Origin: Capsaspora owczarzaki ATCC 30864
Lineage: Eukaryota > Opisthokonta > Filasterea
Length of the DNA stretch: 64,000 nt
Reading direction: 5' to 3'
Assembly: GCF_000151315.2 (NCBI RefSeq)
Contig: NW_011887299.1
Location: forward strand, 1,447,884 to 1,511,883
A program made the translations under genes and the position numbers. The notes under the pieces were generated by a model. It did not search any database, was not told where the DNA came from, and worked only from the letters and a program-made list of their open reading frames with translations. Shown here piece after piece: positions 58,574 to 62,841 of the stretch (its first letter is position 1; each line of letters opens with the position of its first letter).

Positions 58574-61500
58574 ATGAGTTCGGCCGGTTCCAAGCCCGCT
58601 TCGGCGCCCTCTTCTTCGGCTCCTTCAAGGCGTGCAGCATCGGACTCTTTTGATCGTCAATCCAAGCGTCCCAGAACCGTAAGTGGACCGAGACCTGCCT
58701 GTCATTGCCTGTCATTTTCTGTCATTGTCTGTCATTGGGTTTGAATTTTTATTTTTTTTTTGCTCTCCCTTCCCCCCCTTGGCTTTTTGTCGCGTGCCTT
58801 CCTCCCAACTGCCTCGGCGTCGCTCTGCTTGAACACTCTCACCACTTTCTTCGCGCCGTGCGACTGAGCCGCCGCCCTGTCGACTCGGCCCATGAGCGTG
58901 GGCAGCAGCATTGTGCAACAAGCGTGCTTTTTTTTTTTTTTTTTTTTTTTTTTTTTGCTTTTTGTTGCTTCAGATGTGGCTCTTGAGTCGTCGTCCTGGC
59001 CTCCCCGGTGTTCCCTCTCGTCTTCTACACAAACTCCTTTGAAAGAACTGATTCTGTGGGGCCGGGGAGTGGTGGTGAGAGCGGCGAGGAGCAAACTTGC
59101 TCGCAATGGACGTCTTGGCAGTTGCGCGCCATTTTTTGTGTTGTTCGTCGACCTCGTCCACTCGGCTTCGTTCCTTGTGCGAAGCGTGAACAGTCTTTGT
59201 TGTAGAACTGCCACACCGCGATCATATCGCCAGCTAACACATCATCCCTTTTGTTATTTTCTCAAAACTAGGAGAACGACGATGCATCCCAATCCCCTCC
59301 TCAAGCGACTGCTTCAACTGATATGCAGACAACGCCACCGCTTGCTGCAAGTTCGTCCGCAGCACCGATGGACATTGACAACATGAGTTCGGTGAGTGAA
59401 GCAGCTTTTTTCTTCTTCTAGAAGAGAAATAGAAGAAGACCGGACTGACACGGGTACAATCCAGTTTGGACAGGTGCAACGTTGGCAGGCTTTGAATGCT
59501 TGCCTTGGAGTCACCACAGATTTGACTCCCGCAGCAGCTTTGCCCAACACACGTGATCAACGCAACAAACTCATGGAGCTATTGCATGGCGCGCATGCTG
59601 CTGAGGCCAGTCCAAGCAAAGAGGCGCAAGAAAATGGTGCAGATATTCTTGCGAGGCTGGAGCTGACAACTTCTCAAGAAGGTGTACGGGATTTCGAGGA
59701 AGTTGGAGCGAAATTGCTCAGGACCATGATCAACGAGATCACGAGTAAGGAACAGATCGCACGACTTCAGGATGCGCTCGCACAAGCTCAGTCAGCAGCC
59801 GCCCGTCCAGGTGAGTCGTGTTTGAAAAAAAGCCGATCGAATGCAACTGGCTTGGTGTTGGGACGTACCGTCATCGACGTCGTCGTCGTGTGTGTGTGTG
59901 TGTGTGTGTGTGTGTGTGTGTGTGTGTGTGTGTGTGTGTGTGTGTGTGTGTGTGTGTGTGTGTGTGTGTGTGTGTGTGTGTGTGTGTGTGTGTGTGTGTG
60001 TGTGTGTGTGTGTGTGTGTGTGTGTGTGTGTGTGTGTGTGTGATTGAGTGTGTTCTGTTCTGTTCTGTTTTGTGCTTACCTGTTGGCTTTGATCGTGCTG
60101 TGTTGGGAGTAGCTCCGGCAGAAGCCGCTGCCCGACCTCGAGCTGAACTTTCGGCAAACCAAGTTGCTGATCTCGAAGCTTCCCTCGCCTCCGCGCCGGC
60201 TCTTCCTGTCGGTCAGTCAACACGGTCCCAGAGTGAATGTGCGAATGCAGTCGACTCACCTCCTTCTGGCAAAATTTCAGGTGCTGATCCCATCCAATCT
60301 CGTTTTGACGCTTTGATGCGTGCTCGAGTCCTCAAGCGCGCCCCTTGCAATTTCACAGTATTGAGATGAATTTGAGCTGAGATTGAAAGTGTCGGCTTCG
60401 TTGACTGACCAGTGTGCGTTTGCTTGCTTAGCCGATCCTGCTGCCGAATGAAAATCAGTATCAGGATGAAGGCATTCTTTCTATGTTGAAGGACCACTAC
60501 AAGCAAGTTTTCACCGAACCTCCTGGTAATCCCAAGAGGTTTCCACTGGGAATCGTGGCTGGTATTCCTGGAATCGGCAAAACCCGTGCCTCCCTCGAGT
60601 ATGTCAGGCACGCTGTTCAAATGACTCAAGCAAGCGGCCATGCCACAACAGTTGTCCCGATTTACGTGACCTACAACAGCACCACCCCTTTTGGCAGTTT
60701 GGATCGTGTACTGGGTGCTGGACTGAGCATTGCGTACCGCGTCCTGCTTTCTTACATCAACGAAGATAATTTTTGGAACCTCCCTAAGGTGCAAGAGGTG
60801 GCCGCTGCAATTGGAAGAGTCACGCTGTCGGAAGTTTTAGGCATCATCGCGATGCATGCCATGCAGTACCCGCCCAATCTTGTTCAACTTCAGGTCGCTG
60901 CTGCAGGGTCCTCGTCCAGCTCGAGTTCCAGCTCGCCCGCTCTAACTACCGCCAACCCGCCCCGAGTGATGTTTGTGCTGATTCTGGACGAGTTTCAAAG
61001 AGCCCTGATCCACGAGGGTGTCGCTCCAGAGCCGAGGCATCCTGTCTCAAACAAAATCGACAGTCCTTTTCTCCAGTCCATCGTCCAAGCCATGGTCACC
61101 TGTTCAATCCGGTCTATTTCACCGCAAACGTGGCATTGTACAGCCCTTTTTGCCGGCTTGACCTTCGTGCCCCTGGAGGAGCTCATCCGCGGCTCGTCGC
61201 ATTCGCTTACGCGCTTTCCAGTTCCGTGCTTGACTTTCGGACAGTCGGTGGCTTATGTGAAGTATTACATGGAGACTCAGCGACCCACATCTTGGCCGCA
61301 AGACTTCGATATCACTCAAGATGCTGTTTTCCAACGCGTGTTGATGTACGCGTCCGGTCACGCCCGGAGCCTGGAGGCAATCTGCGCTACTTTGTCCACA
61401 AATGCTTTTGTGACCTATGTTGCGTCGTCCAACTCCAAATCGCTCAACGCAAGCGATGCTGAGCTGTTCGTCAAGGCGATCGGGTCGGCCCTCGAGAACC

Positions 61501-62841
61501 GTGTGAGCTCACTCAACATGCAGCAAATTGAATCCACCTTGGTTTCTGCGTTGAGGTGTGCAGTACTCGTCAATCCGGTCGTCAAAGATGATTCCGGTCA
61601 TAACTTGGTCGAGGCGAACTCGCTTGGCACCATCGTCGAGTCTCGGCTCGTCCTTCCAATGCTCATTGGCTATGCGTTGGTTTCGCGGCTGGAGCGACTC
61701 TATGCGCAGCAAGCCCCATCTCAACCTCTCCCACGTCACTGGAAAGCGCTGAAGACGTTGCTTGACAAGTCGGTACCAGGGGAGCAGTACTCCTTGTCAC
61801 TTGAGTCAGCCTGTGCAGCCGCCCTTGCTCTTCGCTTGTACTCGTTTGCACTCGAGTACGGGAGTGATGTCATCCGTCTTAAACAGCTGCACCAAGGAGC
61901 GCGATTCGCCGACAACTCTTCGATCGCTCATCTCGAGATCCCGAAGCCTGATCCCAGCTCCATCGAGCTGTGCGATCGTGGTGGCAAGTTGGGTCCATTC
62001 TTGCCGAATTGCCGTTTACCCGGCACAGTGTATCACGGCATGATCAACAATGCAGCGGTTGACTTTTACACGTTTCACGAGGTAACATTGTGTGAGATCT
62101 GACGTTTCGGATGTTGGTTGCACGAACTTCTTTGTTGCTGACTTGCCGTGCGGATCCATGCTCCAGAAATTGCCTGATCAAGACTTTCAAGTATGTTTGA
62201 TGTTCGTTGGCGATCAGAATGCTGAGGGTGGTACTTACCGGGATGATTTTGTAGGTTGTGCAAGCTGGCGACGCGAAGCTGTACGAGTCAACGGTCTACA
62301 GCAAGACCGAACAGGCAACGCTGGTAGAAAATTCATCCAAGGCGCTTAATTCGGCAGATCAAGACCAATCAGATGCTTCTGATGCCAAGTCGAAGTACAA
62401 ACTGGCCTTGAGTGTTTTTGCAGATGGGCGGGTTTCCATTGCCCCTGAATCCCTCGCCGAGAATGTGTTTTTCGTCGACCAAAGCAACTTCCGCAAATAT
62501 TTCCCTCCTCTGTTGTGGCCCATGTTTGGTGAGTGTGAGCCTCTCTCTCTCTCTCTCTCTCTCTCTCTCTCTCTCTCTCTCTCTCTCTCTCTCTCTCTCT
62601 CTCTCTCTCTCTCTCTCTCTCTCTCTCTCTCTCTCTCTCTCTCTCTCTCTCTCTCTCTCTCTCTCTCTCTCTCCTCCAATTGTAGACGGACTCTCTCTCT
62701 CTCTCTCTCTCTCTCTCTGACCAAGAGCAAAAGGCGGCGCAGGCGGCAGCCACGACGATGCTTGGGGCCGATGGCTCCAAAACCAAGAAAGCCAGTGGCA
62801 GCCAGAAGCAGCCGGCTCGCAGCAAGCGGACGAACAAGTAG
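58574..62841 (+). CDS. Crinkler-like / STAND-type P-loop NTPase of unknown role
   Basis: Eight exons: 58574-58678, 59272-59391, 59465-59810, 60113-60357, 60432-62081, 62167-62190, 62255-62528 and 62726-62841, giving 959 residues in one phase. The N-terminal 75 residues are Ser/Pro/Ala-rich with basic clusters (PSRRAASDS, RQSKRPRT) that could be a nuclear signal. A helical, coiled region follows (about residues 76-270). The NTPase core in exon 5 has Walker A GIPGIGKT, a VPIYVTYNS strand and Walker B VMFVLILDEFQ. A helical/winged region comes after. Exons 6-8 encode a C-terminal domain and a Lys/Ser-rich basic tail. The Walker A plus DEFQ pattern resembles the NTPase module of Crinkler-RHS-type proteins found in oomycetes, chytrids and some protists. 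That is inference. No secretion signal. It lies 226 bp from a LINE fragment. Confidence 0.7.
58927..58956. repeat. Poly-T tract in intron 1 of the NTPase gene
   Basis: About 28 to 30 consecutive T, inside intron 58679-59271. Confidence 0.85.
59889..60042. repeat. Long perfect (TG)n array in intron 3 of the NTPase gene
   Basis: About 77 uninterrupted TG dinucleotides between the donor at 59811 and the acceptor at 60112. This makes up half of a 302-bp intron. Confidence 0.97.
62167..62190 (+). other. 24-base microexon of the NTPase gene
   Basis: Exon KLPDQDFQ between a CCAG acceptor and a GTATGT donor. It is phase 0 on both sides. Without it the flanking exons still join in frame, so it could be a cassette exon. 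Confidence 0.6.
62541..62673. repeat. Long (CT)n array in intron 7 of the NTPase gene
   Basis: About 66 CT units, then a short unique stretch, then a second (CT)n at about 62692-62718, immediately before the acceptor used for the last exon. Confidence 0.97.

Follow-up and report, generated by a model that had tools for sequence, protein, structure and literature searches.

We analysed 64,000 nucleotides of the Capsaspora owczarzaki ATCC 30864 genome (contig NW_011887299.1, positions 1,447,884–1,511,883; hereafter the window) and followed up a P-loop NTPase gene at window positions 58574–62841 on the forward strand. The window takes up the terminal 64 kb of this contig, here called C8, which stops at the window's final base; the genome comprises 27.46 Mb in 29 contigs. 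The gene belongs to a multi-copy family in which N-terminal headers are joined to varied NTPase bodies. Headers and bodies have been exchanged between loci, and in several loci the point of exchange is a TG array in the intron that separates them. An initial annotation had described the gene as Crinkler-like, with extreme intronic dinucleotide arrays and a long interspersed nuclear element (LINE) alongside.

The gene has eight exons (58574–58678, 59272–59391, 59465–59810, 60113–60357, 60432–62081, 62167–62190, 62255–62528 and 62726–62841; all features of the gene are on the forward strand) and seven introns, all GT–AG. The splice model gives 959 amino acids followed by a stop codon and agrees with the initial annotation on protein length, both Walker motifs and the presence of a microexon (62167–62190), which is 24 nt long. 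Exon 1 (58574–58678) is of low complexity and holds, by eye, a basic KRPRT stretch at residue 31, a possible nuclear signal. It lies within a 5′ cassette (58172–59338) made up of the upstream region, exon 1, intron 1 and part of exon 2. Exon 3 (59465–59810) encodes a header domain, H1 (ACLG type), which is found in other loci with different bodies. The body occupies exon 5 (60432–62081), with the P-loop NTPase core, a middle region and the first nuclease-like motif. Walker A is GIPGIGKT (60561–60584, residues 316–323) and Walker B is LILDEFQ (60978–60998, residues 455–461). D816 of a VDF triplet (62061–62063) is the candidate for the first acidic residue in a PD-(D/E)xK-like site, and D836-A-K838 (62270–62278) is the candidate (D/Q)xK motif. 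Exon 8 (62726–62841) encodes a Lys/Ser-rich basic tail. Neither a hydrophobic N-terminus nor an LFLAK motif was seen by eye in the 959-residue protein, in keeping with the earlier claim that a signal peptide is missing.

Two introns carry long arrays. Intron 3, between header and body, is 302 nt long and half of it is a pure (TG)77 array of 154 bp (59889–60042; Tandem Repeats Finder (TRF) span 59888–60053), exactly the length first reported. A CT array in intron 7 (62541–62718, TRF) recurs in the copy of the gene on contig C14 (locus L034); the initial annotation gave it 130 bp, and we measure 132 bp, with 14 more units in a second block. The TG array, listed initially as an oddity, marks a seam of module exchange.

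Gene family and module types

Searching the genome with the window protein gave at least 32 matches. Merging 106 matches from this query, a second header and two other bodies yielded at least 50 family loci, and an extra query added two places (C4:2140537 and C26:10466). These counts are lower bounds, only the best candidates having been scored. They bear out the prediction of an expanded, modular family of P-loop NTPases with varied bodies; the gene does not belong to a conserved single-copy family without paralogues. A conserved housekeeping ATPase is extremely improbable. Profile matches to Protein Data Bank chains include RFC and ORC1 among others, are confined to the P-loop around Walker A and are weak (best E 0.016); against them stand some 50 divergent loci, a census that refutes the idea, and the lack of any family match for the window protein.

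Divergence within the family is large. The closest copy, L034, has a body 99.4% identical to the window's at the DNA level over 1526 bp up to a gap and 79% identical beyond it, and a relative on contig C3 has 40% protein identity. Many matches cover the header only (residues 80–194) or the P-loop region only. By our grouping there are seven body types among the loci fetched for closer study. In an alignment of ten bodies the closest to the window's is 38% identical and the rest 15–21%, and the invariant positions are GxGKT, one N, one R and one D.

Pfam has no family above its cut-off for the window protein, nor any model above cut-off for nine of ten paralogue pieces scanned; the tenth, from L046, exceeds the cut-offs of AAA_22, AAA and Viral_helicase1. 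A RACo_middle match of the header falls below its cut-off (23.1 vs 26.8 bits). No Crinkler or RHS model appears among Pfam matches at E ≤ 1 for the window protein, the ten paralogue pieces (for L046, the best 25 of 27 matches) or nine header and C-terminal pieces, so the initial assignment to the Crinkler-RHS group is not upheld by sequence profiles. Seven proteins gave no meaningful match in PADLOC (best TRIP13, E 0.013) or NCBIfam, and identity with a known anti-phage protein was dropped on this result. Six peptide patterns found no relative in viral and prokaryote contig collections, a search that detects close relatives only; a prokaryotic or viral origin was set aside as a candidate.

Headers fall into several groups. 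A second header, H2, ends in WSKNQG or WSKLQG and lies upstream of the TG array in L034, L047 and L050. By eye it looks unrelated to H1, searches with H1 do not match the H2 of L034, and the H2 pieces of L034 and L050 have no Pfam match above cut-off. L046 and L051 form a third group with coiled-coil-like repeats and lack a TG array of at least 12 units; L046 carries two headers side by side.

Exchange of headers and bodies at the TG array

We fetched 20 loci, the window's included, and oriented each to its gene strand. A TG array of at least 12 units lies between header and body in 11 of them, always on the sense strand, and in 10 of these 11 a family body follows on the same strand; the exception is L040, where none was recognised. 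For all 55 pairs of the 11 array loci, DNA similarity was compared over 150 bp on either side of the array. Random pairs provided the baseline (median 0.58, 95th percentile 0.63, maximum 0.85).

Similarity switches at the array in 12 of the 55 pairs, 10 of them alike upstream and two alike downstream, and no pair is high on both sides. The 10 upstream cases are all the pairs among L037, L038, L039, L041 and L044 (0.81–0.97 before the array, 0.56–0.63 after it). L034 and the window show the reverse, with 0.99 after the array and 0.59 before it, and L041 and L048 reach 0.91 after the array with 0.64 immediately before. An intermediate upstream value (0.71) is seen for L034 with L047. With 100-bp tiles, the step in similarity falls at the array in the eight pairs examined. 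L037 is alike to L038, L039 and L041 in a single unbroken stretch of 1.2–2.5 kb that ends at the array; L044, L048 and L040 align to L037 in two pieces.

Related bodies also occur behind different headers. L034 and the window have 1.5 kb of body in common at 99.4% identity, starting inside the array, and nothing in common upstream. Since L034 carries H2 and the window H1, two kinds of header stand on one nearly identical body. L038 and L050 have a more diverged body in common (72.6%) from the array onward. Approximately unbiased (AU) tests point the same way, with body data rejecting a header clade (p 2.7e-39) and header data rejecting a body clade (p 5.7e-41); the tested groups were chosen with the DNA pattern already known, and the trees contain long branches.

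Array and body also go together beyond the fetched loci. The genome holds 147 TG/CA arrays of at least 16 units not preceded by G, of which the first 100 were located. The stretch covered by these 100 includes 23 family bodies, and eight of them have an array within 1 kb upstream. Altogether 11 arrays lie at most 1 kb upstream of family bodies (0.12 expected), all 11 on the gene strand, and none lies within 1 kb downstream of the same 23 bodies. Seven of the eight array-bearing bodies are loci beyond the 11 read earlier, which brings the total to at least 18 family loci with a TG array. Inheritance of one ancestral intron accounts for part of this enrichment, not for the changes of partner at the array.

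A doubtful alternative is that the array is passive filler: ordinary ectopic recombination would shuffle the genes, and the array would merely mark a site where frame-keeping swaps are tolerated. With half of the 302-nt window intron taken up by the array, many viable swaps would look array-bounded in any case, and at least one switch, that of L050 against the window, falls in intron 1, where there is no TG array. On the other side, arrays recur in 18 family loci and always on the sense strand, and the likeness of L037 to L038, L039 and L041 runs unbroken right up to the array. Three array-less paralogues (L043, L045 and L049), though recent, also speak against mere filler: they are 0.95–0.98 alike on both sides of the joint in all three pairs, with no switch.

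Alternatively, the arrays may serve splicing, being kept for regulated exon inclusion, with any role in recombination a by-product. UG repeats are bound by RNA-binding proteins such as TDP-43. The array begins within about 25 nt of the apparent donor site in several loci and about 80 nt from it in the window, and the sense strand is used throughout, in all 11 fetched loci and all 11 arrays of the genome list. Common descent of one intron would give the same strand bias, and we regard this explanation as unlikely.

Several observations weigh against exchange centred on the array. By our reading about four distinct switches underlie the 12 pairs, which are not independent. The array-less control is weak, since L043, L045 and L049 are a recent group (91.8–97.5% identical), and it omits L042, which has a Tc1-like insertion near the joint, L046 and L051. 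The 5′ cassette of the window is matched in pieces at the DNA level: in L050, which bears the other header (H2), at 86.7% and no further than 59145, a point inside intron 1 close to a T-run; in L035 to 59338; and partly in L052. L035 is array-less and has window exons 1–2 and a related body with no H1 header recognised. The drop in identity between L034 and the window (99.4% before, 79% after) falls inside the gap of L034, and L041 and L048 become alike again further upstream (83.5%). L040 combines an H1 header and an array with no recognised family body; in this locus (C4:290001–299000) the next downstream P-loop frame looks unlike the family bodies; the gene may have decayed or been fused to another sequence. 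The TG array is thus the commonest seam seen, with other seams present.

Contig ends and mobile elements

Family loci crowd the ends of contigs and point outward. The 19 contigs longer than 150 kb hold 48 loci, 22 of them no more than 25 kb from a contig end (1.67 expected); in 21 of these 22, transcription runs toward the end in question. Of the 26 interior loci, 15 face the nearer end of their contig. With bodies alone, the two extra places included, 23 of 43 are near an end and 22 of the 23 point outward. The simplest cause of this bias is exchange of whole chromosome ends, which keeps direction. The contig ends are putative subtelomeres. A very long TTG triplet array lies at C2:4400–5300 (L084), near the start of the contig and downstream of a family gene.

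Of 33 contig ends examined, seven read N, and only the start of C18 is telomere-like, weakly so: it begins CTAACCCTA and goes on as degenerate C-rich sequence, and the family locus of this end is directed toward it. Several ends fall in LINE, Tc1-like or family sequence, and block duplication within subtelomeres would also copy orientation. No contig end carries four TTAGGG units. The sole matches to this pattern are five at two spots well inside C10 (C10:1231939–1232564), perhaps a chromosome fusion or a misjoin.

Assembly error is the principal caveat on both the exchange and the end bias. Had wrong paralogues been joined at identical TG arrays, and had contigs ended in repeats, switches and bias alike would be artificial. 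The ends of C1, C10 and C14 do lie in Tc1-like sequence, that of C8 in the LINE, those of C2, C6 and C15 in sequence that is LINE-like by eye and that of C16 in a family header, and there are gaps within or beside family loci. We nonetheless think an artefact quite unlikely. The arrays at the switches in L038, L039 and L034 are only 40–70 bp long, which typical reads would probably span, and a same-strand family body follows the array in 10 of the 11 array loci. Assembly breaks in repeats could account for the enrichment at ends, hardly for its direction: they would not predict 21 of 22 genes pointing endward.

The LINE beside the window gene is a 3′ part on the reverse strand (62946–64000), tail-to-tail with the gene and with its 5′ side toward the contig end. 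The distance of 226 bp given initially holds for the last LINE stop codon (63067), measured from the stop of the gene; the LINE 3′ end is nearer, about 105–110 bp after the gene's stop. The call rests on copy structure, A-tails and sequence at the start of C3 that resembles reverse transcriptase by eye; Pfam finds no domain in the 310-residue LINE piece of the window. The genome has 19 matches, eight of them near-complete 3′ ends. For six of the eight a contig end is at most about 14 kb away, and in each of the six the 5′ side is endward. Nothing is common to the eight junctions beyond an A-run, so LINE insertion is not sequence-specific.

It is very unlikely that the family is a target of the LINE, as RHS genes are for ingi/RIME, and that the LINE drives its spread. 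Four of the eight 3′ ends do follow family genes or frames, all tail-to-tail (window, about 105–110 bp; L047, about 54 bp; L038, about 290 bp; C2, about 0.9 kb), and partial copies at C14:12783 and C22:4441 lie within about 2.2 kb of family loci. The other four near-complete ends have no known family gene within 5 kb, the flanks read share only the A-run, and the position of six of eight within 14 kb of a contig end explains the link by co-residence. LINE targeting of the family is not supported, and the LINE association is mostly shared residence at contig ends. The transposon link drawn in the initial annotation therefore survives as a location common with retroelements and not as a clear tie to the LINE, which has three of eight ends within about 300 bp of the family and unrelated targets. 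In L047 the LINE may cut the last intron or exon.

A Tc1-like element of about 1.66 kb occurs at three fetched loci (L034:260–1916, L042:2425–4081 and L047:731–2387; copies 99.6–99.7% identical) and splits the family gene in L042. As a family-specific partner it was rejected: at least 20 near-complete matches (at least 1600 of 1655 bases) are dispersed across many contigs.

The GC content of the window is 54%, and eight of its ten long open frames scanned have Pfam matches, including core eukaryotic genes. Among them are Spb1 rRNA methyltransferase (5110–8106), AP-5 zeta (21949–23355), an M28 peptidase (31867–34122) and mRNA capping enzyme (54687–56276). A long reading frame at 45725–48343 is interrupted by a run of N, perhaps a gap. 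The NTPase gene is the final gene ahead of the LINE and the contig end.

Putative mechanism and comparison with known systems

We consider it fairly probable that this is a large, contig-end-biased family of genes similar to Crinkler-RHS-type (CR) genes, and that new members arise by joining of cassettes to bodies, mostly within an intronic (TG)n array. In its proteins an N-terminal header that can be exchanged would precede a P-loop NTPase, and a PD-(D/E)xK-like nuclease motif would lie in the C-terminal domain; the proteins would be intracellular, probably nuclear, and driven by ATP. A 5′ cassette of promoter, exon 1 and header would become attached to a different body through ectopic recombination or gene conversion, in most cases within the long sense-strand (TG)n array of the header–body intron. 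Because the seam is intronic, a swap between introns of the same phase would leave the mRNA intact. The array would itself cause the exchange. A more ambitious reading, which we hold as a tentative possibility, is a dedicated diversification system in which end-pointing CR-type genes have their halves recombined at the intronic (TG)n array, in the manner of the 70-bp repeats of variant surface glycoprotein (VSG) genes; on this reading the length of the array may even govern how often exchange occurs.

The suggestion of a nuclease C-terminus fares better by motif than by fold. By eye, and with split joints chosen by eye, a recurrent pattern is present in most of the seven body types: GVD, GID, GTD or VDF, then about 17–46 residues, then (D/Q)xK. 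The window pattern is D816 followed by D836-A-K838, and DAK is also present in L035 and L036. QxK is found in L037, L044, L038, L050, L052, L039, L041, L048 and L047, and by our reading it occupies an apparently matching position in five other body types. This D...(D/Q)xK arrangement fits a PD-(D/E)xK-type site as in CR proteins. Pointing the other way, L049 has QMM instead of QxK, S replaces the first D in L041 and L048, comparison by hhalign of the window subfamily's C-terminus (three sequences) with other bodies (eight) was not significant (P 0.095), and a single-sequence AlphaFold model of exon 5 gave no usable fold, its mean predicted local distance difference test (pLDDT) score being 39.8. 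An earlier candidate, KLYEST as the motif site of a dead nuclease, was dropped after a global alignment aligned DAK with QxK. The KRPRT stretch and Lys-rich tail, judged by eye, suggest a nuclear protein. The C-terminus may cut nucleic acid, in a possible role of conflict with foreign or mobile DNA; by analogy with CR proteins, we would guess at ATP-gated cleavage of nucleic acid directed against such DNA.

CR proteins are reportedly the subject of Zhang et al. 2016. They are described as composed of a header, an NTPase and a restriction endonuclease, with a hot spot of recombination where the N-terminus ends, and as present also in free-living eukaryotes, with exchange of header and effector (PMC5289972). 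The window family is similar in its header, P-loop NTPase (Walker A and B in the body) and nuclease-like C-terminal motif, and in having several unrelated headers that are exchanged among varied bodies (PMC5289972). It differs in giving no CR, Crinkler (CRN) or RHS profile match (Pfam, E ≤ 1) and in the absence of LFLAK. Of the features of oomycete CRN proteins, neither an LxLFLAK ubiquitin-like header nor a hydrophobic N-terminus was seen by eye in the window protein, and no Pfam match was obtained. The main seam also differs, being an intronic microsatellite here and an exonic motif such as HVLVVVP in CR proteins. The family thus appears to be built like CR proteins, with membership not proven by sequence profiles.

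Trypanosome RHS genes are a second parallel. Trypanosoma cruzi genes are not known to have introns, whereas those of the window family do. Here, moreover, the LINE is outside the coding sequence, beyond the stop codon, with target flanks that vary between copies; no RHS-type retroelement insertion inside coding sequence was seen in the window gene; and several switches occur at one array. RHS proteins are described as having an ATP/GTP-binding motif, their genes as the first at many T. cruzi chromosome ends (PMC3418195) and their recombination events as falling in different gene regions (PMC7563717). Common to both families are multiple copies, the ATP/GTP-binding motif, a position at chromosome ends (here, contig ends), mosaic genes and retroelements alongside (PMC3418195, PMC7563717).

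Parallels for a repeat at the boundary come from other gene families. VSG 70-bp repeats sit upstream of the gene, whereas the array here is in an intron between modules, and VSG is an unrelated surface protein. In both cases a repeat marks the exchange boundary; in Trypanosoma brucei it is described as bounding gene exchange at subtelomeres (PMC4227765). The Sp185/333 immune genes of sea urchins are likewise a diverse family bounded by microsatellites, which are proposed to promote duplication or conversion (PMC3091723). Those microsatellites are described as flanking whole genes, and here one lies between exchangeable domains. In goldfish, GT microsatellites are reported to promote homologous recombination (PMC5948810). 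Our literature search, mostly of open-access papers, found among the papers listed no title or abstract start describing an intronic dinucleotide array as a joint of CR modules.

Mosaics have been the basis for inferring recombination between header and effector in CR and RHS proteins, together with an exonic motif in the case of oomycetes. Here one physical feature forms a joint and recurs in at least 18 loci of the genome; a few array-less paralogues provide a weak natural control. A header–body seam in an intronic TG repeat suggests a way to make new protein combinations, and, if the reading is true, repeat-driven domain shuffling would be directly testable by altering array length. CR-like genes that crowd contig ends and point outward are apparently a case outside trypanosomes.

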